64,000 nt of DNA, from assembly GCA_963576725.1 (NCBI GenBank), contig OY755252.1, positions 44,617,552-44,681,551 of the forward strand, given 5' to 3'. The translations under genes and the position numbers were made by a program. The notes below the pieces were generated by a model that worked only from the letters and a program-made list of their open reading frames with translations, had not been told where the DNA came from and did not search any database. Source of the DNA: Azorinus chamasolen (Eukaryota; Mollusca; Bivalvia; Cardiida; Solecurtidae). This document shows, piece by piece, positions 575 through 63,890 of this stretch (position 1 is its first letter; each line of letters opens with the position of its first letter).

Positions 575-822
575 TTAGCTCTTTGCCTGGTTTGTATAAA
601 TGTTAGAAATAATGCCATTTTGAATATTTATTAGCTCATTTTTATAATATAAACTTTTCCATGAAACCTTTTTCTTTGAAAAAATCTGTAGAATCAGATC
701 GATTTCATGTCAAATGCAAACAGATCAGACATTGATCAGACGACTCCTATAGGAGCCTTCTGATCTGGGTCAACTCTGTTTGCAAATGCGTGAAAATGCG
801 TTTATATGAGGGAAAAGGTTAA
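575..822 (+). mobile_element. MITE family A (piggyBac-like), A2 left end
   Basis: It starts TTAGCTCTTTGCCTG and ends GGGAAAAGGTTAA. The hairpin core at about 714-790 has CTCCTATAGGAG at its centre. The left end is diverged. Family described at 18360. Confidence 0.7.
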
Positions 823-927
823 CACATTTATTCTCATATTATTTAAGGAAACCCCATCCAGATATTATTTTGGGACATATCCATTATTCCTGTTGAGGGG
901 GCACAGCAAACAAACTCTTTGCTGGAT

Positions 928-1052
928 TTAACCATTGACATCGGTGGGTTCATTTAACAATACATATCATAATAAGTGGACTCCTTCAGATGTCATTTGA
1001 TCTGTGTCTACACCGTTTGCCTATGTCCTTACACCTGGCACCAATGGGTTAA
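928..1052. mobile_element. Degenerate G-like MITE
   Basis: TTAACCATTGACATCGG on the left and CCAATGGGTTAA on the right bracket the right half of a hairpin core (GATCTGTGTCTACACCGTTTG). The left arm is lost. Confidence 0.4.
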
Positions 1053-1279
1053 CGAGTTTTACAATATTGTGTAATGATAACCGTAGCCGAAATATTTTAG
1101 CCAAATAAGACTCAATTCCATAGTGTATGCATACGATGTCTGATAAACTTTGCGACGAAATAACTGTGTGTGCACGCGTATACACGTGCATGTGCGCGTG
1201 TGGTGCGTGCGGTGCGGTGCGGTGCAAGAGGCACGCGCGAATGTACTCTGTTTGTTATCTGCTAGAAGCCTCCCGCATC

Positions 1280-1460
1280 CTGAACCTTATTCTGCCATCC
1301 GCAACTTGACTCGTATTAAATTTTGCAAATGGCTTTGGTCCATGGGAAAGGCCGAGTAACTCGGCATCTGATCAACATCCAAGCTGTTTGCCACTCGGTC
1401 AACATGTTTTCACAAGCTGGATCGAATCGGAAGAAGTCAATTTGCACCAGATCCAAATTT
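1280..1460 (+). mobile_element. MITE family C, diverged
   Basis: It has a GGCCGAGTAACTCGGC core with diverged GGATCC arms, then the family C right body (ATCGAATCGGAAG). The ends are poor. Family described at 28239. Confidence 0.5.
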
Positions 1461-1690
1461 AACTCATTCCCTCCTAGTCACGCCTGTTGACGTCTCTGTA
1501 AAATATATTTTTGAAACCATTGTGATAAATAGAGCATTTGCTCCATAGGAGCAAATGCTCAATTTATCACAATGGTTTCAAAACAACGCAGTTCTAAAAT
1601 TTCCCTTTTCTCTAGTAAATGCTCCTTTTCGGTAGATTTATTCAAAGAGGTTGGGTCTGAAAATAGTCTGTCTAGGAGTGAATGAGTAAA
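1459..1690 (+). mobile_element. MITE family D (piggyBac-like)
   Basis: TTAACTCATTCCCTC opens it and GGAGTGAATGAGTAA closes it. The hairpin arms are AAACCATTGTGATAAAT, then AGAGCATTTGCTCC around TAGGAG. The tail carries TGCTCCTTTTCGGTAGATTT, typical of the family. The last TTAA is mutated. Confidence 0.75.
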
Positions 1691-2051
1691 GCAGATATTG
1701 TTATTTTCACATCGGGACAAGACTTAATGGTTAAGACCATCGCTTTAGTTACTGTGACTGCACATCGTTATACATTGTGTATAAGTGTTAATTTTGGTGA
1801 CTTTACAAAATAAGTTTAACCATTTCCTAGAGCGAGCATAATACGAATATGGGGTTTTCTCTCAATTTGTTGTTTGATTAATGGACCATCAGTAAACCTA
1901 TGAAAAACTGTACGTACTTCAGTGATTTCTCCTGGAGTATTTGGAAAAGTAAACCTTTATTATATAGTACATTGCACTATTTGACCATATATCCCATTCA
2001 CAAAACTGTAACTGGATTAAATATTTCAAATTTGAAATTGGAACAAAACTA

Positions 2052-2166
2052 TTAACCTTTAGCCTGCTGAGGCGGATGAGTGACTAGCTGGAAATAGTTT
2101 GGATCCAGATAAGACGCCGAGTGATCCGGCATAACATTATTTGCTCAGCAGGCAGGCTAAGGATTA
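2052..2166. mobile_element. MITE family C variant
   Basis: Ends TTAACCTTTAGCCTGC and CAGGCTAAGGATTA are inverted. The core GACGCCGAGTGATCCGGC is half decayed. Confidence 0.5.
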
Positions 2167-2289
2167 TTTTTTCAAAGAGTAAATGCAGAAAGTATAGTCT
2201 TACTGGTATGTGAGACGTACCCAGGCAAAACGCTGAACGGGCTAGAAGTTAAGGTTTAACCCATTCCCTTATATTGACACCTTTTGGCC

Positions 2290-3600
2290 CATTCCCTCAT
2301 AATGAGAGGAAGTGTCATGCACAAGGTCCATAACTCTGGCTTCACTAATATAGGAGTTATTGCCCCTTGTAAAGAAAAAAAGCACTTTTTTGTCCGGACG
2401 ATAACTCCTATATGGCTCATGCCATTGGAATGAAACTTCATATATGGAAAGATCATGACGAGAGGAAGTGTCATACACAAGGTCCATAACTCTGGCTTCA
2501 TTAATAATGGAGTTATTGCCCTTGTAAAAAAATCACTATTTTTTGTCCGGACGATAACTCCTATATGGCTCATGCCATTGGATTGAAACTTCATATATGG
2601 AAAGATCATGACAAGAGAAAGTGTCATACACAAGGTCCATAACTCTGGCTTCACTAATAATGGAGTTATTGCCCTTGTAATTTTATTTCAAATTTTATTG
2701 TCCGGACGATAACTCCTATATGGCTCATGCCATTGGAATGAAACTTCATATATGGAAAGATCATGACGAGAGGAAGTGTCATACACAAGGTCCATAACTC
2801 TGGCTTCACTAATAATGGAGTATTGCCCTTGTAAAAAAATCACAATTTTTTGTCCGGACGATAACTCCTATATGGCTCATGCCATTGGATTGAAACTTCA
2901 TATATGGAAAGATCATGACAAGAGGTAGTGTCATACACAAGGTCCATAACTCTGGCTTCATTAATAATGGAGTTATTGCCCTTGTAAAAAAAATTCACAT
3001 TTTTTTGGTCCGGACGATAACTCCTATATGGCTCATGCCATTGGAGTGAAACTTCATACATGGAAAGAACATGATAAGAGAAAGTGTCATGCTTAAGGTC
3101 CATAACTCTTGTTTCACTAATATTGGAGTTATTGCCCTTTGTAAAAAATATCACAATTTTTTGTCAGGATGATAACTCCTATATGGCACATGCCATTGGA
3201 GTGAAACTTCATACATGGAAAGATCATGATAAGAGAAAGTGTCATGCATAAGGTCCTTAACTCTGGCTTCAATAAATTGAGAGTTATTGCCTCTTGTACA
3301 TTTGTTTAACGCTTTCTTGTCCAGATGATAACTCCTACATGGCTCTTGCCATTGTATTGAAACTTCATACATGGAAAGAGCATGATGAGAGAAAGTGTCA
3401 TGAACAAGGGCCATAACTCTGGCTTCAATACTTTTGGAGTTATTGCCCTTTGTTACATTTTTTGTCCGATCAATAACTCCTGTTCGACTGATGCTATTGG
3501 AATGACATTTCATTTATGGAAAGAGCATGATGAAAGTAAGTGTCATGCACAAGGGCCATAACTCTGGTGTCAATATATTTGGAGTTATTAGCTGTTATCA
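2290..3600 (+). repeat. 155-bp tandem repeat, about 9 units
   Basis: The phrase GGTCCATAACTCTGGCTTCA recurs at 2325, 2481, 2634, 2789, 2941, 3097, 3252, 3408 and 3553, so the period is 152-156 bp. Each unit also holds GTCCGGACGATAACTCC. Divergence rises toward 3600. A family D-like TTAACCCATTCCCTTATA lies at about 2254. Minus-strand frames across it are by-products of the repeat, since the period is not kept to multiples of three. Confidence 0.9.
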
Positions 3601-3891
3601 TTTTCTTCTTGAAAAATGTGGTGTGGAAAACGCATAATGAGGGGAAGTATCAATCATCAAGTCCATAACATTTTTAGTGATTTCCCTTTACATATTGTTT
3701 TTATTAGAGGGGAGACATCCGTTTTTGTGACAAAAACCTCTAGTTATGCTTTGCAAATAGTGTATAACCTGATCATCTGTCGTGTTTTAAACGAGATATC
3801 TGTTCAGGTTCTACACTGCTTGTAACACTAGTCAGTAAAACCAGGCTCTAATAAATGGAAAACAGTAAAGGACCTGATCAGTCGCCGTTGT

Positions 3892-5578: not shown

Positions 5579-5747
5579 TTATCCCACTCCTGCATATAAA
5601 CGCTTTATCCCGCCTTTGCAAACAGAGTAGACCCAGATCAGACGGCTCCTATAGGCTCATTTTTATTTTTACCTTATAAACATTCAGCTGATAACTATTC
5701 ATGATGTCATTGTTACAATCATGAATGTTGAACTGGGAAAGGGTTAA
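5579..5747 (-). mobile_element. MITE family A, reversed, one hairpin arm lost
   Basis: It has the left arm to CGGCTCCTATAGG, then jumps to CTCATTTTTATTTT. The second arm was deleted from the hairpin centre. It ends GGGAAAGGGTTAA. Confidence 0.75.
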
Positions 5748-8580: not shown

Positions 8581-8957
8581 TTAACCCTTCCCCTCATATA
8601 AACGCATTTTCATGCATTTGCAAACAGAGTAGAACCCGATCACACGGCTCCTATAGGAGCCGTTTGATCAGGGTCTGCTCTGTTTGCTTTTGATATGATA
8701 TAGATCTGATTCCATAATATTTGTCAATGCAAACAGTTTCCTTGAAAAGTTTACATTATGAAAACTGGGTCCATGCTTATAAAACTCTTAGTTGAGTCTG
8801 AGTACGTTCTCAAGCTTTTGATTGGTCAGATTTGAGCCTCTGGCTCAAATCTGACCAATCAAAAGCTTGAGAACTCAAATCTGACCAATCAAAAGCCTGA
8901 GAACGAATTCATGATGTCACTTTTCCTTACATGAATATTGAACAGGGAAAAGGTTAA
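8581..8957 (-). mobile_element. MITE family A, reversed, host of palindrome H1
   Basis: TTAACCCTTCCCCTCATAT opens it and CAGGGAAAAGGTTAA closes it. The core GGCTCCTATAGGAGCC is intact. The body is interrupted by H1 at 8765-8907 and resumes with ATTCATGATGTCAC. Confidence 0.8.
8765..8907. repeat. Palindrome H1, nested and partly repeated
   Basis: It starts GGGTCCATGCTTATAAA. The arms hold TTTTGATTGGTCAGATTTGA and inverse around GCCTCTGGC. The inverse arm is partly present twice, ending AGCCTGAGAACG. See the intact copy at 11600. Confidence 0.7.
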
Positions 8958-11599: not shown

Positions 11600-11748
11600 G
11601 GGTCCATGCTTATAAAGCTTTTTAGTTGAGTCTGAGTTCGTTCTCAAGCTTTTGATTGGTCAGATTTGAGCCTTTGGCTCAAATCTGACCAATCAAAAAC
11701 TTGAGAACGAACTCAGACTCAACTAAAAAATGTTAAGCATGGACTCAG
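11600..11748. repeat. Palindrome H3, near perfect
   Basis: GGGTCCATGCTTATAAAG runs to its inverse GCATGGACTC. The arms include TTGAGTCTGAGTTCGTTC and TTTTGATTGGTCAGATTTGA. The loop is GCCTTTGGC. Terminal TTAA or TA duplications are not evident, so the transposon class is open. Confidence 0.75.
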
Positions 11749-16050: not shown

Positions 16051-16259
16051 GTACAGTAAAAATCCTATAACGCGACCACCAAAACAGGTATAATTCATAG
16101 TGGTAGGTGCAGGTGGTAGCTTAATGCAGGACAAAAGTAATGCAGAAAGCTCCCATTGGAGCTTTCTGCATTACTTTTGTCCTGCATTAAGCAACCGCCT
16201 GCTTATAAAGACAGCCGTATTTATTCATTAAGTGGTCGCATTAGAGGGGTTCTACTGTA
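16051..16259 (+). mobile_element. MITE E1, intact (type copy)
   Basis: TA-flanked, 209 bp, from CAGTAAAAATCC to GGGGTTCTACTG. The sub-ends AACGCGACCACC and GTGGTCGCATTAG are inverted. The central hairpin holds GTGGTAGCTTAATGCAGG, CAAAAGTAATGCAGAAAGC and the loop TCCCATTGGA. CAGT ends with TA duplication fit the Tc1/mariner superfamily, pogo branch. No coding capacity. Confidence 0.85.
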
Positions 16260-17162: not shown

Positions 17163-17258
17163 TTTCTCCACCAAACCCTATGTTGTGACCACTCCTTAGA
17201 ATCGTCTCTTCGAGACGATTCTAAAGAGTGGTCACAACATAGGGTTAAGTGGAGAAAT
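17163..17258. repeat. Palindrome family I, copy 1
   Basis: TTTCTCCACCAAACCC to GGAGAAA, with arms CTATGTTGTGACCACTC and AGAATCGTCTC around TTCGA. Nearly perfect over 96 bp. Confidence 0.75.
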
Positions 17259-20596: not shown

Positions 20597-20809
20597 TTAA
20601 CCCTTGGCCTGATAAGCGAGACCTTACTGGCATTTGCAAACAGCTTGGATCCAGATGAGACGCCGAGTAACTCGGCGTCTCATCAGGATCCAAGCTGTTT
20701 GATACTCTCTCAATAGTATCTCAAAAGCTTCAACGAATCGGAAGTAAATGACAAAGGCAGCATATTGGAACTTACGCAGGTCTCATTTTCATAGCAGGCT
20801 AAGGGTTAA
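20597..20809 (+). mobile_element. MITE family C, intact
   Basis: TTAACCCTTGGCCTGATAAG to AGCAGGCTAAGGGTTAA, 213 bp. Perfect core GAGACGCCGAGTAACTCGGC within GCTTGGATCCAGAT arms. Confidence 0.85.
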
Positions 20810-24010: not shown

Positions 24011-24167
24011 ATTTTACTAATGAATATTCATGCAATTAATCATTTCTTAAAATGGCTCAAGGACACCGATATGCCGGTCACTTTCAGAAACTGTAGAATC
24101 AGATCTATATCATACCATAAGCAAAAAGATCCGATCCTGATCAGACAGTTCCTAGAGGAGGTACATG
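24011..24167 (+). mobile_element. MITE family A left half, seed of the 42-bp array
   Basis: A2 body (TGAATATTCATGCAAT, AACTGTAGAATCAGATC) and core to GATCAGACAGTTCCTAGAGG. Instead of a right arm the 42-bp array begins. The matching right end may be GCGTTTTGATCAGGTAAATG near 27883-27906. Confidence 0.6.
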
Positions 24168-24928
24168 TAGCTGATCTGGTCCGTCTCTGTATGTTAGTAC
24201 GTACATATACAGCTGATCTGGTCCGTCTCTGTTGCTAGTACGTACATATGCAGCTGATCTGGTCCGTCTCCGTATGCTAGAACGTACATATGCAGCTGAT
24301 CTGGTCCGTCTCCGTATGCTAGTACGTACATATGCAGCTGATCTGGTCCGTCTCCGTATGCTAGAACGTACATATGCAGCTGATCTGGTCCGTCTCCGTA
24401 TGCTAGTACGTACATATGCAGCTGATCGGGTCCGTCTCCGTATGCTAGAACGTACATATGCAACTGATCTGGTCCGTCTCCGTATGCTAGTACGTACATA
24501 TGCAGCTGATCTGGTCCGTCTCCGTATGCTAGTACGTACATATGCAGCTGAGCTGGTCCGTCTCCGTATGCTAGTACGTACATATGCAGCTGATCTGGCC
24601 CGTCTCCGTATGCTAGTACGTACATGTACATATGCAGCTGATCTGGCCCGTCTCTGTTTGCTAGTACGTACATATGCAGCTGATCTGGTCTGTCTCTGTT
24701 TGCTAGTACGTACATATGCAGCTGATCTATCCCGTCTCTGTTTGCTAGTACGTACATGTACATATGCAGCTGATCTGGCCCGTCTCTCTATGCTAGTACG
24801 TACATATGCATCTGATCTGGTCTATCTCTGTTTGCTAGTACGTACATATGTAGCTGATCTGGTCCGTCTGTTTGCTAGTACGTACACATGCAACTGATCT
24901 GGTCTGTCTCTGTTTGCTAGTACGTACA
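24168..24928 (+). repeat. 42-bp satellite, first block, about 18 units
   Basis: The unit runs CTAGTACGTACATATGCAG, then CTGATCTGGTCCGTCTC and CGTATG. The part CTGATCTGG...CTGTTTGC matches the right arm of a family A core. Two units have an extra TACATG. As 42 is divisible by 3, frames stay open on both strands; these are not genes. Each unit holds CATATG and CAGCTG, both E-box type hexamers. Confidence 0.9.
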
Positions 24929-25195
24929 TACAGTGGTAAATACGCTATTCCTACCCACTTAACGCGTTTCTTACGCGTTACCTAACCGTTCGTTACCCGT
25001 TTCTTAGCCGTTTCGTTAAACGGGTTTCTAACCGTTTGTTTACGCGTATCTTAACGCGTTTCCTAAACGTTTAAGAGCCCGGATGAAAGGGGAGTAATCA
25101 TGGACGAAAGGGGGGTAATCCTTGATATGGCCTTTCTTTGAAGTGGGAGACTTTCTCCTTTACCTGTTGGACACTCCTGATATGTAAAATTAAGA

Positions 25196-27418: not shown

Positions 27419-27881
27419 TATGCAGCTGCTCGGGTTTGTCTCTGTTTGCTAGTAGGTACATATGCAGCTGATCTGGCCGTCTCTGTTTGCTAGTACGTAC
27501 ATATGAGTCTGATCTGGTCCGTCTCTGTTTGCTAGTACGTATATATGCAGTTGATCTGGTCCGTCTCTGTATTCTAGTACGTACATATGCATCTGATCTG
27601 GCCCGTCTCTGTATGCTAGTACGTACATATGCATCTGATCTGGCCCGTCTCTGTATGCTAGTACGTACATATGCATCTGATCTGGGCCGTCTCTGTATGT
27701 TAGTACGTACATATACAGCTGATCTGGCTCGTCTCTGTATGCTAGTACGTACATATACAGCTGATCTGGTCTGTCTCTGTTTGCTAGTACGTACATATGC
27801 AGCTGACCTGGCCCGTCTCTGTTTGCTAGTACGTACATATGCATCTGATCTGGCCCGTCTCTGTTTGCTAGTACGTACATA
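27419..27881 (+). repeat. 42-bp satellite, second block, about 11 units
   Basis: Same unit and orientation as 24168-24928, from TATGCAGCTGCTCGGG to TTGCTAGTACGTACATACGC. The two blocks were one array before the transposon entered. Confidence 0.9.
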
Positions 27882-30193: not shown

Positions 30194-30441
30194 TTAACCA
30201 TTTCCATGTTCTATGTTCATTTCAAATGTCAATACCTGAAATATATGAATATTGATGAACAAAATAGTTATAATGAAATAAGGAAGGTGGAACATTTTAA
30301 CCATTTTAGAAAAAAAAAGAAACAGATTCCATCAGCAAACAGAGTAAACCCTGATCAAACGGATCTTATAGGAGCCGTCTAATCTGGGTCTACTCTGTTT
30401 GCGGATGCATGAAAATGCGTTTATATGAGGGAAAGTGTTAA
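30194..30441 (+). mobile_element. MITE family A inserted in an E core
   Basis: TTAACCATTTCCATGTTCTA to GGGAAAGTGTTAA, 248 bp. TTAA on both sides is the site within the E arm. Core loop GGATCTTATAGGAGCC. Confidence 0.8.
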
Positions 30442-30923
30442 TGCAGGGTGACAGTTATATGAGGGAAAATGTTAATGCAGGGTGACAGTTATATGAGGGA
30501 AAGTGTTAATGCAGGGTGACAGTTATATGAGGGAAAGGGTTAATGCAGGGTGACAGTTATATGAGGGAAAGTGTTAATGCAGGGTTACAGTTATATGAGG
30601 GAAAGTGTTAATGCAGGGTGACAGTTATATGAGGGAAAGTGTTAATGCAGGGTGACAGTTATATGAGGGCAAATGTTAATGCGGGGTTACAGTTATATGA
30701 AGGAAAGTGTTAATGCAGGGTGACAGTTATATGAGGGAAAGTGTTAATGCAGGGTGACAGTTATATGAGGGAAAGTGTTAATGCAGGGTGACGGTTATAT
30801 GAAGGAAAGTGTTAATGCAGGGTGACAGTTATATGAGGGAAAGTGTTAATGCAGGGTGACAGTTATATGACGGAACGTGTTAATGCAGGGTGACAGTTAT
30901 ACATGTATGAGGGAAAGTGTTAA
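30442..30923 (+). repeat. 34-bp tandem repeat, about 14 units
   Basis: Unit TGCAGGGTGACAGT, then TATATGAGGGAAAGTGTTAA. It is exactly the junction of the A right end with the E arm that follows it, amplified. One unit has an extra ACATG. The array ends in normal E sequence (ACAGTCATGCATAAAGC). Confidence 0.9.
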
Positions 30924-31099
30924 TGCAGGGTGACAGTCATGCATAAAGCCCCCATAAACAGACGCGGGGAAATAAAAACCTAATGTACAAAGTTGATACT
31001 TTATTACACCCTGAGGTTTTGAATTGAGATGCGAGAGCATTCCAAAGTACACTCACATACCTCAAGGCAAATGTAGATATGGACATTTATAACCCAGAA

Positions 31100-38569: not shown

Positions 38570-41255
38570 GAAAGTGATCCTATGGCTTTGGGAAAACACG
38601 GACTTCATCCAGCTTTTTCGGCTTCGGATTTTTTCTTGTGGCTGCCGAATTTCGGCCAAACATAATTCTGAAGTTGAAGTCCGTGTTTTGTTTTCGGACC
38701 TATGAGACTTGGAAAAAGTGTTTTTGCCAGATCTGTTGGAGTGAGTAAAACACAGACTTCATCCAGCTTTTCCGGCTGCGGATTTCCGGCTGTCGATATT
38801 TTTGGCTGCATATGTTTCTGAAGTCCGTGTTTTTCTAAGCCTATGCATTTGGGAAAAACACGGACTTCATCCAACTTTTCCGTCTGCGGATTCTCTCTCG
38901 GGGCTGCCGAATTTTGGCCACAGATTTTTCTGAAGTCCGTGTTTTTGTAAACTTATGGTTTGGGGAAAAACACGGACTTCATCCAACTTTTCCACTGCGG
39001 ATTTTTTCTCGGGGCTGCCGAATTTTTTGCCGCATATATGTCTTAAGTCCGTGATTTTATCGAACCTATGGCTAAGGGAAAAACACGGACTTTATCCAAC
39101 TTTTCCGTCTGAGGATGTTTTCTCGGGGCTGCCGAATTTTTGGTCGAATAGTTTTCTGAAGTCCGTGTTATTGTCGAACCTATGGCTTTGGGAAAAACAC
39201 GGACTTCATACAACTTTTCCGTCTGCGGATTATTTCTCGGGGCTGCCGAATTTTTGGGCGCATATATGTCTTAAGTCCGTGCTTTTGTCGAACCTATGGC
39301 TAAGGGAAAAACACTGACTGCATCCAACTTTTCCATCTGCGGTTGTTTTCTCGGGGCTGCCGGATTTTTGGCCGCATATTTTACTGAAGTCCGTGTTTTT
39401 GTCGTACCTATGGCTTTGGGAAAACACGGACTTCATCCAACTTTTCCGTCTGCGGATTATTTCTCGGGGCTGCCGAATTTTTGGCCGCATATATCTCTTA
39501 AGTCCGTGCTTTTTTCGAACCTTGGCTAAGGGAAAAACACGGACTTCATCCAACTTTTCCGTCTGCGGATGTTTTCTCGGGGATGCCGAATTCTTGGCCG
39601 CATATTTTTTATGAAGTCCGTGTTTTTGTCGGACCTATGGCTTTAGGAGAAACACGGACTTCATCTTACTTTTTCGGCTGCGGATTTTTTTCTCGGGGCA
39701 GCCGAATTTTTGGCCGCATATATGTCTTAAGTCCGTGCTTTTGTCGAACCTATTGCTAAGGGAAAAACACGGACTTCATCCAACATTTCCGGCTGAGGAT
39801 GTTTTCTCGGGGCTGCCGAATATTTGGTCGCATATTTTTCTGAAGTCCGTGTTTTTGTAAAATTATGGTTTTGGGAAAAACACGGACTTCATCCAACTTT
39901 TCCGACTGCGGATTTTTTCTCGGGGCAGCCGAAATTTTGGCCGCATATTTTTCTGAAGTCCGTGTTTTTGTCAGACCTATGGCTAAGGGAAAACACGGAC
40001 TTCATCCAACTGTTCCGTCTGCGGATGTTTTCTCGGGGCTGTCGAATTTTTGGCCGCATATTTTTCTGAAGTCCGTGTTTTTGTCGAACCTATGGCTTTG
40101 GGAAAATACGGACTTCATCTAACTTTTCCGTCTGCGGATGTTTTCTCGGGGCTGCCGAATTTTCGGCCGCAAATTTTTCTGAAGTCAGTATTTTTGTCGG
40201 ACCTATGGCTTTGGCAAAAACACGGACTTCATCCAACTTTTCCGTCTGCGGATTATTTCTCGTGGCTGCCGATTTTTTGACCGCATATTTTTCTGAAGTC
40301 AGTGTTTTTGTCGGACCTATGGCTTTGGGAAAAACACAGACTTCATCCAACTTTTTCGGCTGCGGATTATTTCTCGGGGCTGCCGAATTTTTGGCCGCAT
40401 ATTTTTCTGAAGTCCGTGTTTTTGTAAATCCTATGGCTCTGGGAAAAACACGGACTTCATTCACCTTTTCCGACTGCGGATGTTTTCTCGGGGCTGCCGA
40501 ATTTTTAGCCGAATATATTTCTAAAGTTGAAGTCTGTATTTTTGTCGGACCTATGGTTTTTGGAAAAACACGGACTTCATCCAGCTTTTCCGGCTTCGGA
40601 TTCTTTCTCGGGGCTTCCGTATTGTTGGCCGCATATATTTCTGAAGTCCATGTTTTTGTCGGACCTATGGCTTTGGGAAAAACACGGACTACATCCATCT
40701 TTTTCGGCTGCGGATTTTTTTCTCGGGGCTGCCGAATTTTGGGCGCATATATGTCTTAAGTCCGTGCTTTTGTCGAACGTATGGCTTAAGGAAAAACACG
40801 GACTTCATCCAACTTTTCCGTCTGCGGATATTTTCTCGGGGCTGCCATTTTTTTAGCCGCATATTTTTCTCAAGTCCGTGTTTTTGTAAGCCTATGGTTT
40901 TGGGAAAAACACGGACTTCATCCAGCTTTTCTTGCTGCGAATGTTTTCTCGGGGCTGCCGAATGTTTGGCCGCATATTTTTCTGAAGTCCGATTTTTTGT
41001 CGGACCTATGGCTTTGGGAAAAACACGGACTTCATCCAACTTTTTCGGCTGCGGATTTTATCTCGGACAGCCGAATTTTTGGCCGCATATATGTCTTAAG
41101 TCCGTGCTTTTGTCGAACCTATGGCTAAGGGAAAAACACGGACTTCATCCAACTTTTCCGTCTGCGGATTATTTCTCGGGGCTGCCGAATTTTTGGCCGC
41201 ATATTTTTCTGAAGTCCGTATTTCGGCGGACCTATGGCTTTGGCAAAAACACGTT
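38570..41255 (+). repeat. 115-bp satellite with inner inverted motif, about 23 units
   Basis: Each unit has CACGGACTTCATCC, then TCTGCGGATTTTTTCTCGGG, CTGCCGAATTTTTGGCCGCA and CTGAAGTCCGTGTTTTTGTC. CACGGACTTCA and TGAAGTCCGTG are inverted, so units can pair with themselves. Two unit types alternate between about 39000 and 39850 (CTGAAGTCC with GGCTTTGGG; CTTAAGTCC with GGCTAAGGG), a dimeric higher-order repeat. Frames of up to 202 codons on both strands follow from the repeat. Confidence 0.9.
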
Positions 41256-48019: not shown

Positions 48020-48300
48020 TACAGTCCGAACAATAAGTCAAGAACTGTCTGCACAACTTTCGTTCTACATTAACCCATTTGCTCCCAGTGGATTCTTCAA
48101 TGCTTATAAATTGGATTAGTCCATTTTTCATCTAAGGGATATCTGGTCTAAATTTCCTGTCAGCAAACAGTGTAGACTCTGATCAGACGCCGCATAATGC
48201 GGCGTCTGATCAGAGTCTACACTGTTTGTCTACGTCCAATATATGGGATAGTGGGAGCAAATGGGTTAAGCAACCTCTACATTAAGCAACCACCTCCATA
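48020..48300 (+). mobile_element. E-family right arm, host of G
   Basis: CTTTCGTTCTACATTAA before G, and TTAAGCAACCTCTACATTAA with GCAACCACCTCC after it, continue one E arm. Confidence 0.55.
48070..48269 (+). mobile_element. MITE family G, intact (type copy)
   Basis: 200 bp between TTAA copies. Ends CCCATTTGCTCCCAGTGG and inverted GTGGGAGCAAATGGG. Perfect hairpin AAACAGTGTAGACTCTGATC, AGACGCCGCATAATGCGGCG and inverse. Confidence 0.85.
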
Positions 48301-49786: not shown

Positions 49787-49998
49787 TAAATTCCCTCATT
49801 CCCTAATATTGACGCCTTTTGACTCCTATGCAAACGTCACCTGTTGAAACCATCGTGAAAAATATAGCATTTGCTCCTATAGGAGCAAATGCTTTATTTA
49901 ACACAATGGTTTCAATCCTTTTCTCTAGTTGATGCTCCTTTTCGTTAGATTTATTCAAAGAAGTTGGATCTAAAAAAGCCTATGAGGTAATGGTTTAA
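49787..49998 (+). mobile_element. MITE family D
   Basis: AAATTCCCTCATTCCC to TGAGGTAATGGTTTAA. Hairpin GCATTTGCTCCTATAGGAGC intact. Confidence 0.75.
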
Positions 49999-50530: not shown

Positions 50531-50898
50531 CAGTAGAACCATTTTCTCTTAATGGGCAATTGTATGATAATTGTTTGCTAATAGTTTGAATTCAAACGAG
50601 ACACTTTGCCCATCTGCGTCTCTTAAGAACCAGGACCATTTGACGCAAATTATCGTCTTTGAAGCAAAAGAAAGAACTATCTAGTCTGTATAATGGGATC
50701 GAAGGAGAATTTGTTTTGTTGAAGAATGTATTTAAGAGTTCAGGAAACGAATACTCAAACCGTCAGCCCTCACTATGAGAAAATAAGTTCAATGTTTTGC
50801 AAACAGTGTAGATCAAACCCAGACCAGGGGCTGCTTAATTTCTTTATATATGTGATAAACTATTTATCGTTCAATATTCTTTTTTTCTTTACCTAATA
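50531..50898. other. Fragments only
   Basis: An E left end (TACAGTAGAACCATTTTCTC) at 50528, a B/C scrap (ATAGTTTGAATTCAAACGAG) near 50584 and a core scrap at 50797. No gene. Confidence 0.35.
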
Positions 50899-51741
50899 TA
50901 GGGTTAATCCTACTGTAATTTGGAATTTGCGACGGTATATGAGGTTTTTAACGGTCGCAAATTATTTTAATGGCGACGCCGAAGGCGGAGCCGTTAAAAT
51001 AATTTAAGACCGTTAAAAACCTCATATACCGTCGCAAATTTCAAATTACAGTAGGGTTAACCCTATTCTAACGCAATCTTAACACGAAAAATGCCAAATT
51101 GTTGTTATATCCTTTGCGCGCAGGTGATTGAATGAGTGATGAGGCGAGAAATAGTGCCCAGTTTCTCTCAGATTTCTTAAAATAACTGGATTTTTTCACC
51201 CTGGTTTACACAGTCAAAACACCGGCCCAGTTGTAAGTTCACTATTACATTTGTCATGAATCATTATGCGACAGCTATTTTACATTTCAATACACTTTCA
51301 ATACACATGTCAGGAAACGTAACGTTATCTTAGTCTTTGGCGCCGTACGCAAAAACGTCGTCTGTAACAATGACGTCACGTTATAACGTTATGTTTGAAT
51401 AGTATGATAAATAAGGTTGAATCTGAATCACAACGCTTTGAGAATATCAATAATTCTTCACATGACATATAAAAGACCGGTCAAGTCGTGACAAAGAATG
51501 GAAATTAATAACTTCCAAAACACCGGACTGAACTTGAATATTTGTCAGTGTATGCATACGAATTTATCAGTAGATCTAAGTGTTTGATAAACAAAGCGCA
51601 TTAATATATTTACAGGCTAATGCTGTTATTCGGCCGTTTTCGATTGGTTGAATTTGCGACATATAAAACAGTTTTTATATGCCGCAAATTTAGTCACATG
51701 AGCCAATCAGATTGCAGAAAATTGACAGATTGCGTTAGAAT
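50899..51741. mobile_element. Fold-back element K, copy 1
   Basis: A 167-bp palindrome (50899-51065) from TAGGGTTAATCCTACTG to its inverse, with arms TTTGCGACGGTATATGAGG and TTTTTAACGGTCGCAAATTA and centre GGCGACGCCGAAGGCGGAG. A 676-bp tail follows, bounded by TTCTAACGCAATCT and inverted AGATTGCGTTAGAA, and it holds a second hairpin near 51641-51710 (CGATTGGTTGAATTTGCGAC). No coding frame. Confidence 0.75.
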
Positions 51742-51783
51742 GAATTATTATGCAGAAATAATGACATCATGCATATTTTATTA

Positions 51784-52633
51784 TAGGGTTAACCCTACTG
51801 TAATTTGAAATTTGCGACGGTATATGAGGTTTTTAACGGTCGCAAATTATTTTAATGGCGACGCCGAAGGCGGAGTCATTAAAATAATTTAAGACCGTTA
51901 AAAACCTCATATACCGTCGCAAATTTCAAATTACAGTAGGATTAACCCTATTCTAACGCAATCTTAACACGAAAAACGACAAATTGTTGAGCCGATTTTA
52001 ACTCAAGTAATATCCTTTGCGCGCGGATGATTAAATGAGTGATGAGGCAAGAAATAGTGCACCAGTTTCTCTCAGATTTCTTAAAGTAACTGTGTTTTCA
52101 CCCTGGTTTATATATACATTTCATTAGTCATGAATAATTGTGCGATAGCTATTCAACATGCTGAGCTCAATACATATACATTCAATACACGTTTTGGTAA
52201 AGTAACGTCATCTTAGTCTATGGCGCCATACGGGAAAACGTCGCCTGTAACAATGACGTCACGTTACAACGTTATGTTTGAACGATATAATAAATAAGGC
52301 CTAATCTGGATCCCAACACTTAGAGTATCTCAATAATTCTCCACATGACACATGTGCATATAAGAGACCGTTCAAGTCGTGACAAAGTAAACAATGGAAA
52401 ATAACTTGAAATAACGGGCCAAACTGGAATAGATCTAGATTTATATGTCAAAGTATGCATACGGATTTATCATTGCTTATAAACAACGCGCATTGATATA
52501 TTTACATGCACATGGTGTTATTCGGCCGTTTTCGATTGGTTGAATTTGCGACATATAAAACACTTTTTATATGCCGCAAATTTGGTCACATGAGCCAATC
52601 AGATTTCAGGAAATTGACAGATTGCGTTAGAAT
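51784..52633. mobile_element. Fold-back element K, copy 2, nested in A
   Basis: Same layout as copy 1: 167-bp palindrome (51784-51950), 683-bp tail, same ends. The flanks (TTTATTA / TAGCTGATTTT) rebuild uninterrupted A sequence, consistent with a TA target. Confidence 0.8.
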
Positions 52634-55947: not shown

Positions 55948-56155
55948 TACAGTAGAGCCTGTCTTAAGAGGCCATTCATTTAGTTAACACAGGAGTCTTA
56001 AACAGCAGGTGGTTGTTTAATGCAGAGCAAAAGTAATACAGAAAGCTCCTATAGGAGCTTTCCTTCTGTATTACTGTTGACCTGCATTAAGCTACTGCCT
56101 TACAGACCAATAATTAGACATATTTGTATAGCCGCTTAAGACAGATTCTACTGTA
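55948..56155 (+). mobile_element. MITE E2, intact (type copy)
   Basis: TA-flanked, 208 bp. CAGTAGAGCCTGTCTTAAGA to GCTTAAGACAGATTCTACTG. Hairpin loop AGCTCCTATAGGAGCT, with CTT inserted in the right arm. Confidence 0.85.
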
Positions 56156-57193: not shown

Positions 57194-57501
57194 TTAACCT
57201 TTCCCTGATGAATATTCATGTAGGAAGTAATGACGTCATGAATACTAATAAGATTATTTTATATAAAAGCATAAAAAAAATGATTCGTGTTGGTTGTTAA
57301 TTTATCCCATATATAAAAGCATATGAACACATGACATTTTAGCTCATGCAGAAGCTGTATAATCAGATCTGTACTACAGAATAAGCAAACAGAGCAGACC
57401 CTGATCAGACTGCTCCTATAGGAGCCGTCTGATATGGGTCTACTCTGTTTGAGGATGCGCGAGAATGCGCGAGAATGCGCTTACATAAGGGAAAGGGTTA
57501 A
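57194..57501 (+). mobile_element. MITE family A, A2, end unit duplicated
   Basis: TTAACCTTTCCCTGATGAAT to AGGGAAAGGGTTAA. Core TGCTCCTATAGGAGCC. GCGCGAGAAT is doubled; CATATATAAAAGCATA is a second body duplication. Confidence 0.8.
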
Positions 57502-58025: not shown

Positions 58026-58275
58026 TTAACCCTTCGCTTGCTGAATTTTAGACTACATTTCTCCTTCTTTACCCATGCCCTGTTGTGTAATTAAATATAT
58101 ATTCACTGTGTACAAGTATTTCGCTGTACAATCACTGCTGTGGAGTGCACTGGTTGCACAATCAACTTGTAAATAGTGCAGACCCTGATGAGACAGCTCC
58201 TGCAGGAGCTGTCTCATCTGGGTCTTCACTATTTACAGGTACGTATATTGACGTGAGTAGCAAGCGAAGGGTTAA
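58026..58275 (+). mobile_element. MITE family F, copy 3
   Basis: TTAACCCTTCGCTTGCTG to AGCAAGCGAAGGGTTAA, 250 bp, perfect inverted ends and hairpin GACAGCTCCTGCAGGAGCTG. Confidence 0.9.
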
Positions 58276-58997: not shown

Positions 58998-59234
58998 TTA
59001 ACCCATTCCATGTTCTATGTTTATTCCAAATTTCGATACCTACTGAATATTCATGGACAAAATAGTTGTAGCCATTGTAGCCATCTTAGAAAATAAAGTA
59101 AAAAACCAGATTTTTCAAACTCCGTTAGCAAACAGAGCAGACCCTGATCAGACGACTCCTATAGCAGCTGCCTGATCTGGATCTATTCTGTTTGCAAATG
59201 CGTGTAAACACGTTTATATCAAGGAAAAGGTTAA
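58998..59234 (+). mobile_element. MITE family A, A1
   Basis: TTAACCCATTCCATGTTCTA to AAGGAAAAGGTTAA. Core GACTCCTATAGCAGCTGC. A B-like left end (TTAACTCTTTCGGCG) lies nearby at 58907. Confidence 0.8.
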
Positions 59235-59480: not shown

Positions 59481-59481
59481 G

Positions 59482-59833
59482 TAGTTAAACTTCGACACAT
59501 CGAACTCGGATAACTCGAACGATGGGATAACTCGAACTAAACACTCTTCGAACTTCTGGATAACTCGAACTAAAACTTCGGTCCTTCCAACATTTACAAT
59601 AGAACGTTGTTTTAAATGTATATCTATACATAACTGGAAACACGTGTGACAGCTTAATGCAGATCTAAAGTAATGATGAAAGCTGCAACATGAGCTTCCA
59701 GCATTACTTTAGAGCTGCATTAGCTGTCAACTTGAGAAATGTTTCATGTTAGAAATCGGATGGCTCGAACATCTGTTATCTCGAAGTAATCTCCATGGTC
59801 CCCTGAAGTTCGAGATATCGAAGTTCAGCTGTA
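59482..59833 (+). mobile_element. MITE E4 (type copy)
   Basis: 352 bp from TAGTTAAACTTCGACACATC to GATATCGAAGTTCAGCTGTA. GGATAACTCGAAC repeats at the left, TCGAAGTAATC at the right. Core CAGCTTAATGCAGATCTAAA with inverse. The TCGAAC-type ends are common among pogo elements. Confidence 0.8.
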
Positions 59834-60107: not shown

Positions 60108-60580
60108 TTAACCCTTTCCTCCATAGAGACGCTTTTGACACTTTTGTGAACAAAGTAGACCCAGATCAGACAGTTCATGCAGGAGCCTCCTGATCAGAGT
60201 ATGTTCTCTGTTTGCTATGCGGTAATATAGATCCGATTCTACAGTTTCTGTCTCATCTACAGTTAAACCTCTCTAAAACGGCCACTACATTACATCAAGT
60301 ATTTTGTGTTAAAGACAGGTGACTCCTTAAAGCAAGGTGAAAGTAAAACAGAACGCTCCTATAGGAGCGTTCTGTTTTACTTTCATCTTGCTTTATGCAG
60401 CCACCTGTCCTAAATACCAACTAATTTACACAAAGTAGTGGCCGTTATAGAGAGGTTTTACTTATATAATTCTGTGTTCACATACCAATCTAAACATACA
60501 AGCTTGTAATTGATATCCATGATGTGATTATTGGTGACATGAATATTCGTCAGGTAATGGAACAATGCACAAAGAGTTAA
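60108..60580 (-). mobile_element. MITE family A, reversed, host of E3
   Basis: TTAACCCTTTCCTCCATAG to ACAAAGAGTTAA. Core AGTTCATGCAGGAGCC. E3 sits in the body at 60258-60464. Confidence 0.8.
60258..60464 (+). mobile_element. MITE E3, intact (type copy), nested in A
   Basis: TACAGTTAAACCTCTCTAAA to TATAGAGAGGTTTTACTTA. Perfect hairpin GTAAAACAGAACGCTCCTAT and inverse. Core CTCCTTAAAGCAAGGTG differs from other E cores (AAAGCAAGG for AATGCAGG). Confidence 0.85.
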
Positions 60581-61096: not shown

Positions 61097-61251
61097 CTTG
61101 TGCATGTACACTTTCACTTAAGATTTGGAACCAATCTATTCTCGTAAATGCAATGTACAACCAATCTTACTTGTAGCTATTTCTCGTTGTTGTATTTTCT
61201 CTCTATTTGTCTATTTGTCTCTTTTTCCTTCTCTCTATCCACACTCTGAAG

Positions 61252-61313: not shown

Positions 61314-61640
61314 CTTCACCGCTTCCTTCCCTTTTATGTTCGCTTCATTCATGTGCTGTCATTGTAGATAGAGCGCGTGGTCCATGGTGATACCGTATTC
61401 CTACGAACTGCAGATTGTAACATCTCGGCATTCCTCGACACGCTGCGCCTTAACTCGGCAATATGTACCGATTCTTGATTTGCCATTTTTTTTTACGTAC
61501 AGAACTAGAATTTTCATGAACGTAATGAATTTAATGCGCTTAGATGAATGTCGAAGATGTTACGATTCGGGACAATCCATAGTTTCTGCAGACTTCCCCA
61601 GTCAGTTTCAACAATACTTTGCGCTATAGTTTAAGAGGTG
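61314..61640 (+). other. Possible 3' leader or intron, no repeat
   Basis: Repeat-free. An 81-codon frame at 61384-61629 has no motif I recognise. Confidence 0.25.
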
Positions 61641-61850
61641 TTAATTGACCCTCTGCCTTCTAAGCGCCACCTCGCCGGCATCTGTAATCAGTTTGGATCA
61701 AGGTGAAAGACCGGGTAATTCGGCATCTCATCAGAATCCAAACTGTTCTACACTCGGTCAATAGTTTCTCATAAGTTTTAACAAATCGTAAGTAAATAAT
61801 GATCAAAGCGAACCATAGTTTTTGCTGACATGAATTTTTGCTGTTTATTC
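61641..61850 (+). mobile_element. MITE family C
   Basis: TTAATTGACCCTCTGCC, core GACCGGGTAATTCGGCATC, body TTTTAACAAATCGTAAGTA. Right end unclear. Confidence 0.55.
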
Positions 61851-61875
61851 GTTAAGTTGATATGACTCATTAAGT

Positions 61876-62228
61876 TACAGTAGAACCTGTCTTAACCCAT
61901 TACGTCATAGGCTATATTTAGATACAACCCCTTTGAATAAATCTACCGAAAAGGAGAATTAACTAGAGAAAAATATTTTTTTAGAATATTGTAGCTTGAA
62001 ACCATTGTGATAAATAGAGCATTTGCTCCTATAGGAGCAAATGCTCTATTTATCACAATGGTTTCACAAAGTGATTTCTATAGAGTCGTCAAAAGTCGTC
62101 AATATGAGAGAATGGGTTAATGTAGGGCAAAAGTAATGCAGAAAGCTCATATAGGAGCTTTCTGCATGCTCACTCTTGGTCTGCATCATTAGATATTACT
62201 GTTGCCGCTTAAGCCAGGTTCTACTGTA
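61876..62228 (+). mobile_element. MITE E2, host of D, left half lost
   Basis: TACAGTAGAACCTGTC meets D at once; right side TTAATGTAGGGCAAAAGTAA with loop AGCTCATATAGGAGCT to GCCAGGTTCTACTGTA. The piece between two TTAA sites of the E2 is gone. Confidence 0.8.
61892..62120 (-). mobile_element. MITE family D, reversed (type copy)
   Basis: 229 bp between TTAA copies. Hairpin AAACCATTGTGATAAATAGA, GCATTTGCTCCTATAGGAGC and inverse is perfect. GAATAAATCTACCGAAAAGG is the reverse of the tail in forward copies. Confidence 0.9.
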
Positions 62229-62311
62229 TTATGGTTTCGGACACGTTATATTCAACATATATATTAAGGTAATTACACATACTATATTATTTGAAACTAA
62301 TTAATCATACT

Positions 62312-62532
62312 TACACCCAGAAAAGTCTCGCTAATACGACCTCTCCAAAGAAATATAATTCTGGTTTTTTTAAAACAGGTTGTACCTTAATGCAGCCAAA
62401 GCGTATGCAGAAATCTTATATAGGATCTTTATGTATTACTTTTGCCCTGCACTAAGCAAGAACCTGTTAATACAGACTATTATGTTACATGTAATTAACT
62501 ATGTGATGATATTAGCGAAACTTTACTGGATA
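62312..62532 (+). mobile_element. MITE E1, diverged
   Basis: CCCAGAAAAGTCTCGCTAAT to GCGAAACTTTACTGGATA. Loop AATCTTATATAGGATCTTT. Confidence 0.65.
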
Positions 62533-62595
62533 CACAACATATCTCATTTGTATTAACGCTGATCCCGCTGTGAAAAAATTTCAATTTTGTACTAG

Positions 62596-62705
62596 GACCC
62601 AAGGTTATAAAACTAAGCCTGAGTCTGGAATCATTTTCAAGTATCTGATTGGTCAGATTCTGAGTAAGCTCAGACTCAAGCAAACAAAATATACCCTCGG
62701 GGCCT
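62596..62705. repeat. Palindrome H4, half collapsed
   Basis: GACCCAAGGTTATAAAAC, TATCTGATTGGTCAGATTCT, then a short inverse (GCTCAGACTCAAGC). Confidence 0.55.
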
Positions 62706-62734
62706 GATACACTTTAGATTACTTTCAATTCGAT

Positions 62735-62838
62735 CCAGCGTTTGAGAAACTATTGGTCGAGTGCCGAGCAGCTTGGATCCAGATGAGTCGTCCGGTTATT
62801 CGGTATCTCATCGGCATCGAATCTGATTGCAAAGACCT
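62735..62838 (-). mobile_element. Family C, reversed
   Basis: GAGAAACTATTGGTCGAG, AGCTTGGATCCAGATGAG, decayed loop, ATTGCAAAGACC. Confidence 0.5.
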
Positions 62839-62839
62839 T

Positions 62840-63083
62840 TTAACCCTTTCCCTGTTCTATACATAATTTCAATACATAATGAATATTCATGGACAAAATA
62901 GTTGAAATGAAATATGAAAGGAGGAACATTTCAGCCATTTTAGAAACTAAAGGAACAGATTTGTCAAAGTCCATTAGCAAATAGAGCTGACCCTGATCAG
63001 GCGGCTCATATAGGAGCCGTCTGATCTGGGTCTACTCTGTTTGCAGATACGTGAAAATGCGTTTACACGAAGGAAAGGGTCAA
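62840..63083 (+). mobile_element. MITE family A, A1
   Basis: TTAACCCTTTCCCTGTTCTA to GAAGGAAAGGGTCAA. Core GGCTCATATAGGAGCC. Confidence 0.85.
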
Positions 63084-63180
63084 GTCGTTGACAGCGGGAT
63101 AAGGGCTTTTACTTCGACAAATACGTTTTGACTACTTTAATCAAAGCTGTATGTTTAATAAACCATTTGGCCCTTTTTAC

Positions 63181-63295
63181 AGGAAACCTTCCAGCTGGCT
63201 TGTAGTAGGTCGTTGGTTCTTCACTGGTGTTCTTCTGTGCTCGAAACATTGCATTTTGTTCCGTGCATGGGTAAACATCTGAGGTCTTCTTCCTC
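63181..63295 (-). CDS. Candidate exon, unknown protein
   Basis: The minus strand reads KKTSDVYPCTEQNAMFRAQK followed by NTSEEPTTYYKPAGR in a repeat-free stretch with balanced codon use. A possible acceptor (CTAATTACAG) ends at 63296. The donor is unclear: CCT/GTAAAA at 63180 or AAG/GTTTCC at 63188. The frame stays open through VKRAKWFIKHTALIKVV to a stop at 63109. The plus strand of the same interval also has an acceptor-like GGCCCTTTTTACAG and donor GCATGG/GTAAAC, so strand choice is not certain; I favour minus on residue mix. Family not recognised. Confidence 0.35.
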
Positions 63296-63344
63296 CTGTA
63301 ATTAGCTGGACGTCGTGATATAACTGTCAAAGCGAAGTTAAACC

Positions 63345-63655
63345 TCGAAACTAGGAAAGTGTATTTGATAAATTAGAAAATAATTGTAGCTACTTGAAGG
63401 AAAGTACATTTAATATGATACAATTGGTAAGAAAGTGCGTATTTGATAAATGATACATTAACAATATAAAGTACACCAAAAGTGTTGCAATAACTACGAA
63501 AGCGCATTTATAATGATACGATAGCTATGAAAGTGCATTTATAACGACACGATAGCTGGGAAAGTGCATTCGAAAATGATCCAATACGTAGCAAAGTGCA
63601 TACAATAACGAAAGAATAGCTAAACAGAATGCATATGAAATATGATCTACAAAAT
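63345..63655 (+). repeat. Degenerate tandem repeat, about 35 bp
   Basis: GAAAGTGCATTTATAATGA and GATAGCTATGAAAGTGC-like units recur about eight times with drift; GAAAGTGC reappears at 63912 beyond an E6 element. Confidence 0.6.
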
Positions 63656-63672
63656 TGATAAATACCGCGGGA

Positions 63673-63890
63673 CACAGTAAAAGCTCGATTAACCGAACAC
63701 TCAAAAGTGTGACATGTTTTATCTTTAACGCAGGTGGCAACTTAATGTAGCTTAATGCAGGGTGAAAGTTATGCAGAAAGCTCCTCTATGTGATTTCTGC
63801 ATGACTTTCACCCTTCATTAAGCAGTCACCTGCCTACAAAGACACACATTATTCATGACTAACATTTCGTAGTATCGAGTTTTTACTGTA
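63673..63890 (+). mobile_element. MITE E6
   Basis: CACAGTAAAAGCTCGATTAA to TATCGAGTTTTTACTGTA. Core has GTAGCTTAATGCAGGG after a doubled AACTTAAT; loop GCTCCTCTATGTGAT. Confidence 0.8.

Follow-up and report, generated by a model that had tools for sequence, protein, structure and literature searches.

The window analysed here, a 64,000-nucleotide stretch of DNA from the bivalve Azorinus chamasolen, holds MITEs with TTAA/piggyBac-like ends (families A, D, F, G and H) and with TA/pogo-like ends (families E1 to E4), carrying near-perfect palindromes of 2 x 32-35 bp in the TTAA families and 2 x about 47 bp in E. The original prediction had described the ends correctly: elements of A and D, and also of F, start TTAACCC, and those of E start TACAGT. 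Two more TTAA families, G and H, had been overlooked; they combine A-type arms with different centres (CGCCGAGT-a-ACTCGGCG in G, CGCCGCAT-a-ATGCGGCG in H), G being present as 20 palindromes and H as an intact copy plus a fragmented one. TTAA stands at both ends of the five named elements of A, D, F, G and H, for which we infer, from occupied rather than empty sites, a duplication of the TTAA target site. Their inverted repeats start with CCC and match at 11 (A), 11 (D), 13 (F), 13 (G) and 15 (H) of 16 tip bases, in a scan that reported only pairs with at least 9 of 16 matching. TTAA targets and CCC tips are features of piggyBac. The E1 element at 16052-16259 and the E element at 55948-56155 are 208 bp each with TACAGT...ACTGTA ends, which we take to be pogo-like from general family features and the CAGT start motif. 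Inspection by eye of the open reading frames in the window recognised no transposase or autonomous copy. The main features are as follows.

8620..8687, plus strand: palindrome of family A with arms of 34 bp each; exact centre at 8647-8660, near-tip TTAA at 8581, axis 73 bp from the tip
58998..59234, minus strand: 237-bp element of family A with TTAA ends; its palindrome spans 59128-59195 and its near tip is at 59234
57385..57452, minus strand: family A palindrome; exact centre 57412-57425, 10-bp tandem repeat in the near flank, tip at 83
61892..62120, minus strand: 229-bp element of family D with TTAA ends; its palindrome at 61997-62066 is perfect, with 35-bp arms and the exact centre at 62025-62038; axis to near tip 89 bp
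49844..49914, plus strand: family D palindrome; exact centre 49873-49886
58026..58275, minus strand: 250-bp element of family F with TTAA ends; its palindrome spans 58169-58236, with GCTCCTGCAGGAGC as centre at 58196-58209; axis to near tip 73 bp
20597..20809, plus strand: 213-bp element of family G with TTAA ends; its palindrome spans 20637-20701 and joins arms of A type to the centre CGCCGAGTAACTCGGCG; axis to near tip 72.5 bp
48070..48269, minus strand: 200-bp element of family H with TTAA ends; its 32-bp arms (48164-48228) are perfect, around the centre CGCCGCATAATGCGGCG; axis to near tip 73.5 bp; inserted at a TTAA within an E arm
16052..16259, unstranded: family E1 element (TA/pogo-like), 208 bp; core palindrome 16109-16202, axis 104 bp from both tips, left and right flanks unlike at 48-78 bp from the axis
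55948..56155, unstranded: family E element; exact centre 56045-56058, both tips 104 bp away
60258..60465, unstranded: family E3 element, 208 bp; palindromic arms of about 101 bp, exact centre 60355-60368, right tip altered
59642..59735, unstranded: family E4 core palindrome; inner arms E-type, outer parts different

One palindrome had been claimed to lie at the heart of A, D and E, and GCTCCTATAGGAGC, with up to two mismatches allowed, does stand at the axis of the TTAA-ended A, D and F and of the TA-ended E elements. Across the whole window it was found at 36 sites with up to two mismatches (6 exact, 11 with one, 19 with two), against a mean of 0.06 expected from 100 shuffles, the exact sites lying at 8647 and 57412 in A, 49873 and 62025 in D, and 56045 and 60355 in E. 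Arms of A, D, E or F type stand to the left and right of 32 of these sites and on a single side of the other 4, and no site lacks them (an arm being called at 17 or more of 27 arm bases, which 52 of 2000 random positions pass), so that the motif is not free-standing. The frequency of the motif at hairpin centres, a check put forward in the original prediction, was high within the window: GCTCC-N3/4-GGAGC is the most frequent 5-bp mini-hairpin with 18 sites, followed by CCGAG and TTTTT with 9 each. The CCGAG mini-hairpin is the centre of family G. F has a centre of its own, as proposed, with CTGCAG in all three copies. For E and D the full 14-mer holds in part only, being exact in 2 of 18 two-armed E copies while the central four bases vary across E, and exact at its two D positions while the centre is one base shorter in 5 of 9 two-armed D copies (for example GCTCC-ATA-GGAGC). 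What A, D and E1-E3 have in common is 7 of 7 half-centre bases, on arms that are not reliably alike.

Within families, these bases were not the most stable ones. In the pooled A, D, E and F copies (22 of 28 A, 13 of 18 E with three E4 and two others omitted, 4 of 9 D restricted to even centres, and 3 F), bases were changed in 20 of 84 arms at the axis, 63/504 at positions 2-7 and 165/2268 at positions 8-34, a count that allowed E subfamily variants in the arms only and is thereby biased toward the arms. The repeat on family A, free of this bias, gave 50/308 changes in the centre vs 96/1100 in the arms (p=3e-4), hence a faster decay of the centre; in G, the difference ran in the opposite direction (4/140 vs 37/480, p=0.05), with no faster centre decay. 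In a separate conservation count, the location of copies via their arms likewise favours the arms. An additional copy sample comprised 26 A, 17 of 18 E, 10 G, 9 D and 3 F. The proposed comparison of loop with arm conservation, run here on window copies, accordingly found the loop less well kept than the arms in A and not so in G. The shared central bases look real, yet they are not the best-conserved part.

These data weigh on the earlier suggestion that the centre itself is selected, through a hairpin-tip nuclease or a replication start, and on selection for an RNA hairpin. GGAGC does occur in the same register in three arm lineages, for which chance would account at about 1.5e-4 if nine lineages (our own count) were all independent. 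Against this, the axis is the most changed part in the pooled A, D, E and F copies, the centre decays faster than the arms in A, and G (20 palindromes) and H multiplied without that centre. An RNA hairpin would leave strand-specific wobble, which does not show in family A once two fixed mispairs are set aside (44 G.T vs 35 A.C, p=0.37; 61 vs 36, p=0.014 with them included), the ratios being 3:5 in G and 4:6 in D; no Rfam family reached its gathering score in the window. We consider selection of the centre as such improbable.

The arms fall into three lineages, {A, F, G, H}, {D} and {E1-E4}, with no reliable likeness between them. Among A, F, G and H the palindrome is shared more than the flanks or the interior: arm similarity reached p values at the test minimum (A2-G 0.007), and far-interior similarity p <0.05 for A1-A2 only. 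Beyond the core, near arms are 66-83 percent alike (19-24/29); near flanks beyond the tip are at 31-54 percent identity (8-14/26) with unchanged length, and A, F and G retain weak in-register identity there (p 0.004-0.04). The two halves of E behave comparably, with arms alike at p <=0.01 in 41/45 pairs and flanks at 48-78 bp at p <0.05 in 3/45. When A arms were set against E arms at 17 shifts, the fixed register scored highest (p=0.064). For these comparisons, the arms and flanks of each consensus had been entered by hand. TCTG at positions 10-13 is common to A and E, as read off the consensuses without a separate test. Shared descent with replaced outer parts, as originally proposed, fits A, F, G and H, except that there the arms are shared and the centre is the part that changed; for D and E, the centre alone is in common with A.

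As the arms diverged, their two halves changed together. In 16 copies of A, F, G and H picked as clean, 14 of them distinct (7 of 28 A, 3 F, 5 of 20 G and 1 H), both sides had changed in 14 of 32 pairs, and the covariation score was 0.344 vs 0.141 in shuffles (reached by 0/500) and at most 0.079 when slid. In E (15 of 18 copies, also picked as clean), both sides had changed in 19 of 45 pairs, with a score of 0.216 vs 0.132 shuffled (0/500) and at most 0.094 when slid; kinship among sequences can, in both groups, outscore shuffles even without structure. Weaker measures were less distinct from shuffles, the count of A/F/G/H pairs changed on both sides being equalled by 16/500 and that of further pair types by 48/500 in A/F/G/H and 52/500 in E. 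Between the hand-made consensuses, near-arm changes were matched at the same far-arm positions in 6 of 7 cases for A-F, 9 of 9 for A-G and 5 of 7 for A-H (hypergeometric p of 5e-6, 1e-6 and 4e-4). One mispair, T/A at position 17, was retained in A, F and G, unpaired in 12 of 14, with neighbours on either side changed in pairs; the symmetry of the palindrome is hence incomplete.

Such paired changes would likewise arise by arm conversion, if one or a few old palindromic MITEs had been copied arm to arm by germ-line hairpin template switching, with spacing and centre inherited and no cis function. The weak in-register identity of the A, F and G near flanks and the best-fitting fixed register between A and E accord with this history, as does the hairpin tip, whose decay is the fastest both in A and in pooled A, D, E and F, an effect that processing of hairpins could produce. 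It sits less well with the mispair kept amid positions changed in pairs, with near flanks so far decayed at constant length while the arms still match, and with G, which lacks tip decay. We regard descent with arm copying only as a possible explanation, although a somewhat doubtful one.

A further regularity is the place of the palindrome. Measured from a recognisable tip, the distance to the axis is typically about 73 bp for A, F, most G and H and 89 bp for D, while E has 104 bp on either side. Of 26 A copies, 13 had the near tip at 72-74 bp; it was found at 73 bp in 3/3 F, at 71.5-73.5 bp in 5 of 20 G (two of these five tips being degenerate) and at 73.5 bp in H, by a loose search pattern that misses decayed tips and includes some chance ones; it gave no near tip in 12 of 26 A copies, and one far-side A match at 72 bp (30368) was excluded by hand. 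Far-side distances were 126.5 bp in H, 140-142 in G, 164-181 in A (12 copies) and 176-177 in F. Among E arms, 9 of 36 measured exactly 104 bp and four others 102-114. Exceptions were one A at 83 bp, one G at 68.5, two G at 101.5 (25335 and 54519) and one D at 76.5. Since A, F and G near flanks keep in-register identity, this spacing may be mere inheritance without indels.

The reading that we favour, at a probability of roughly 0.4, takes the palindrome for a cis site with two-fold symmetry in the master elements, to which a dimer would probably bind, and the centre common to A and D for a result of descent. In active masters, this site would serve transposition, the simplest case being that the transposase of the element, or a partner protein, sits on it as a dimer in register with the tip. 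As transposase lineages diverged, both half-sites would change in step, and MITEs would inherit the site while their far interior was lost or replaced. GCTCC..GGAGC would then be the centre retained in A and F and, probably through descent, in D, since the tips of A and D resemble each other (p 0.003; 0.13 past the first 14 bases). The window copies would be decaying and need not be under selection; two-fold symmetry, and perhaps also tip spacing, appears to be what is constrained in the masters. A palindromic site here could also restrain mobility instead of helping it.

A dimer site leaves the centre shared by A and E unexplained, and this link between A and the pogo-like E is the weakest of the reading; the E centre would either have been captured or match by coincidence over 5-7 bases per half. 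Coincidence, compatible with the cis site, would mean that the centre of A, F and D reflects kinship and that E arrived at its half-centre by chance. With A and D counted as one lineage, which their tip likeness encourages, sharing between two of nine lineages (again by our own count) arose in 4.7 percent of simulations for 5 bases and in 0.3 percent for 7 bases, and such matches get picked after the fact; the TCTG also held by both A and E and the register at p=0.064 speak against chance. We see this coincidence as possible rather than probable. Capture, in which an old central palindrome was swapped between superfamilies via nested insertion and recombination and fitted with new ends, would be made easy by the TTAA elements that insert in E arms, with D (62120) and H (48070-48269) lying inside E-arm TTAA sites beside an E palindrome. 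It would also fit E1-E4, whose inner arms are alike and outer parts unlike, and the half-centre common to A, D and E1-E3 on unlike arms. However, 60 of 60 two-armed palindromes were of the same family on both sides, with no A/E or A/D chimera (G and H scored as A, 58 single arms lying outside the check), and the common stretch is only 7 bases per half, which makes capture unlikely. Least probable of all, to our mind, is that one host factor, and not the transposases, reads the GCTCC-(3-4)-GGAGC-centred palindrome at a fixed tip distance in two superfamilies and so enables MITE multiplication.

Two other readings were rejected. If the inner palindrome of E had entered a pogo MITE as a TTAA insert of its own, an empty centre, GGTGG..GCTTAAGC..CCACC, would be expected; this pattern had 0 matches, and E3 lacks TTAA. 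The D centre as two H-type TIR pieces was based on a 10-base match, GGAGCAAATG; it was dropped and remains a lead. No tRNA was found in the window. Exact arm patterns had 0 matches in viral_contigs, and the A arm 0 in genome_contigs, virus and prokaryote collections that carry little weight here. Among the papers listed by literature searches, judged by titles and abstract openings, none was recognised as a description of these elements, and of six words of sequence a single one matched, in a paper on a Mycobacterium tuberculosis protein.

A large palindrome that covaries pair by pair, keeps a mostly constant distance to one tip and occurs in families whose interiors are otherwise unrelated suggests a specific candidate cis site. 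It bears on the open question of why some MITEs reach very high copy number. If the centre shared across superfamilies is real, inner modules, besides ends, would help decide the success of an element.

Compared with known systems, these elements differ from the pearl-family modular MITE DTC84 of the bivalve Donax trunculus, whose palindrome adjoins internal satellite-like repeats; the excerpt describing DTC84 mentions no shared centre or tip distance. Family E resembles pogo/Tc1-mariner-type foldback MITEs in its TA ends, CAGT start and long inverted arms, and departs from them in that the inner 47 bp of each arm are palindromic whereas bases 48-78 mostly are not, at constant length. An inner module found across different mobilising machineries recalls the highly conserved domain V of SINEs, also present in the DNA transposon MER6 (PMC6887750), although both groups here resemble DNA transposons and have 7 bases per half in common, and the abstract of that study mentions no palindrome. 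A precedent for the proposed cis site comes from piggyBac and piggyBat, where the C-terminal domains of a transposase dimer jointly bind a palindrome in one transposon end, the piggyBat left end holds three imperfect palindromes with the innermost at bp 107-120, and piggyBat subterminal sites inhibit mobility (PMC11707139). As there, the palindrome mostly occupies a set place in one end, dimer binding being a result from those systems; their palindromes, of 14-19 bp and repeated in the piggyBat left end (PMC11707139), contrast with the single one of 64-70 bp found here, whose axis lies about 69 bp inside the TTAA.

MITE families A, D, F, G and H comprised short elements with TTAA at each end and tips beginning with CCC, and the elements of the TA-ended family E (E1 to E4) started with TACAGT and measured 208 bp in the clear cases. 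On these end features alone, we take the former to be piggyBac-like and E to be pogo-like; inspection of the window's ORFs by eye revealed no recognisable transposase. Each family carries an internal palindrome, consisting of a centre around the axis and two arms, followed by flanks running to the element tips. Example elements are:

58998-59234: family A, TTAA-ended
61892-62120: family D, TTAA-ended
58026-58275: family F, TTAA-ended
20597-20809: family G, TTAA-ended
48070-48269: family H, TTAA-ended
16052-16259: family E (E1), 208 bp
60258-60465: family E3, 208 bp

The original prediction placed a 14-mer with a GCTCC..GGAGC centre, GCTCCTATAGGAGC, at the core of MITEs with both types of ends. 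This sharing was real, with 36 sites in the window at up to 2 mismatches (6 of them exact) where 100 shuffles averaged 0.06, but the 14-mer was neither universal nor the best-kept part of the palindromes. Arms of A, D, E or F flanked 32 of these sites on both sides, 4 on one side and 0 on neither, and GCTCC-N3/4-GGAGC, with 18 sites, outnumbered every other mini-hairpin of this kind in the window; CCGAG and TTTTT came next at 9 each, CCGAG being what family G has at its centre. De novo scanning found 79 palindromes scoring at least 13, against 0 in a Markov control made of one sequence as long as the window. Scanning with consensus arms from families A, D, E and F recovered 58 single arms and 60 two-armed palindromes, the latter comprising, by our own count, 28 A, 1 G, 1 H, 9 D, 18 E and 3 F, with the G and H palindromes scored as A.

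Beyond 7 bases from the axis, arms were alike among A, F, G and H (permutation p = 0.0005, the minimum of the test) and, separately, among E1-E4 (p 0.0005-0.001). Ungapped tests across A/F/G/H, D and E revealed no reliable likeness bar a few E3 pairs among many compared (A near arm-E3 p = 0.0165, G-E3 0.0275, D-E3 0.048). One local score between the A far arm and D reached p 0.0055, and arm profiles in fixed register gave p = 0.064 for A-E (the unshifted register scoring best among 17), 0.31 for A-D and 0.22 for D-E. A, D and E1-E3 therefore share all 7/7 bases of the half-centre on arms that are not demonstrably related and, conversely, G and H join A-type arms to other centres. The palindrome map is a mosaic rather than a single centre with many arms.

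In simulations using the window base composition and nine lineages (our own count), three lineages shared 7 bases by chance in 0/200,000 runs and 5 bases with a probability of 1.5e-4; for two lineages, the values were 0.3 and 4.7 percent. Because their tips are alike (p 0.003, but 0.13 past the first 14 bases), A and D may be kin, in which case the E match alone would be left to explain and the evidence against chance for it would be moderate.

In A, and in A, D, E and F pooled, the centre decayed faster than the arms. Over 22/28 A, 4/9 D, 13/18 E and 3/3 F copies, changes affected the axis base in 20/84 arms, positions 2-7 in 63/504 cells and positions 8-34 in 165/2268 (centre-arm differences p 4e-6 and 2e-4). 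For A only, with CpG left out, 50/308 centre cells had changed against 96/1100 in the arms (p 3e-4), and the centre was worse than the arms in 17/22 copies; G went in the opposite direction (4/140 against 37/480, p = 0.05). These counts therefore do not show within-family selection on the GGAGC centre. In three single-armed copies, at 5645, 31189 and 35871, the break falls only a few bases from the axis, so that the tip of the hairpin may be prone to deletion.

The arms changed in pairs. In hand-made consensuses, near-arm changes were mirrored at the same positions of the other arm in 6/7 (A-F), 9/9 (A-G) and 5/7 (A-H) cases. Among 16 chosen copies of A, F, G and H, 14/32 pairs had changed on both sides (matched by 16/500 shuffles; the number of pair types by 48/500), with a covariation score of 0.344 against a shuffled mean of 0.141 and at most 0.079 when slid. 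For E (15/18 copies), both sides had changed in 19/45 pairs, a count reached by 0/500 shuffles, with a covariation of 0.216 against 0.132 and pair types matched by 52/500 shuffles. Double changes led to the same base in 35/48 cases over 17 E copies, against 12.9 on re-pairing the arms (0/1000), in 14/25 against 8.7 for A (47/1000) and in 5/9 against 2.4 for G (62/1000); D and F had none in this test. Such pairing could also result from arm-to-arm copying via hairpins, the main rival explanation, to which a mispair at position 17, kept in A, F and G and unpaired in 12/14 distinct rows, is mildly contrary. A role of the palindrome as RNA gains weak support if two fixed mispairs are counted, and none once they are set aside.

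The palindrome also behaved as a module. Arms were alike in all pairs of A, F, G and H; far interiors reached p < 0.05 only between the A subfamilies A1 and A2 (A1-F 0.058). Near flanks beyond the tip were mostly unrelated in local alignment (A1-G 0.02), with weak in-register identity (A-G 14/26, p = 0.004; F-G p = 0.014; A-F p = 0.04; A-H and F-H 0.08; G-H 0.33). Identity to the A consensus (24 copies) was 0.84-0.91 in palindrome blocks, 0.71-0.80 in the near flank and tip and 0.55-0.79 elsewhere, in an alignment biased by locating copies through their arms and by mixing two subfamilies in the interior, which lowers the last value. Inner arms of E were alike between halves (p <= 0.01) in 41/45 pairs, the remaining four being E3-E4; bases 48-78 from the axis reached p < 0.05 in 3/45, the failures including comparisons of both sides within a single element.

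The distance from axis to near tip, the closer element end with TTAA counted in, was mostly constant: 72-74 bp in 13/26 A copies examined (12/26 lacked a recognised near tip; one, with a 10-bp repeat, lay at 83), 73 in 3/3 F, 73.5 in H and 71.5-73.5 in 5/20 G, two with a degenerate tip (TCAA or TCAG), with G exceptions at 68.5 (one copy) and 101.5 (25335 and 54519). Far-side distances were 126.5 (H), 140-142 (G), 164-181 (A, 12 copies) and 176-177 (F, two copies). Among 9 D copies, three gave 89, 89 and 88.5 and one 76.5; among 36 E arms, the tip lay at exactly 104 in 9, and four others gave 102, 105, 111 and 114; for the remaining 23, the first pattern match was elsewhere or absent. Constant distance despite changing sequence fits a complex spanning tip and palindrome, but it may also reflect substitutions eroding likeness without indels.

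Satellite arrays in the window include:

24165-24930: 42-bp tandem array, unit with a weaker A-arm-like piece
27419-27881: 42-bp tandem array, unit holding an A-arm-like piece, CTGATCTGG..CGTCTCTGTTTGC
30421-30937: 34-bp array, 15 copies, built on a TTAA junction where an A-type tip meets an E arm, TTATATGAGGGAAAGTGTTAATGCAGGGTGACAG
38747-41253: 114-bp satellite, 22 copies, inverted-repeat pair within the consensus unit

The 42-bp arrays look like satellites that absorbed a palindrome arm, and the 34-bp array apparently arose from a nested insertion. TTAA-ended elements or tips at 62120, 48070-48269 and 30953 occupy a TTAA ~32-35 bp from an E palindrome axis. Further long palindromic families, with other centres and arms of 33-88 bp, occur at 11619-11729, 8838 and 11372; at 17208 and 43590; and at 50898-51066 and 51778-51956, the last pair being apparently TTAA-ended (TTAACCCTACTGTAATTT).

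The covarying arms and mostly constant tip distance are more telling than the shared centre. The best single account would be that, in the masters (the presumed active parents of the MITEs), the palindrome was a two-fold symmetric site for a protein, with the protein, its binding and an effect on mobility all putative. An analogue is the palindrome in piggyBac and piggyBat ends that is bound by the C-terminal domains of a transposase dimer; in piggyBat, subterminal sites inhibit mobility (PMC11707139). In mollusc MITE literature, the nearest palindrome found was that of the pearl-family element DTC84 (PMC5139131).
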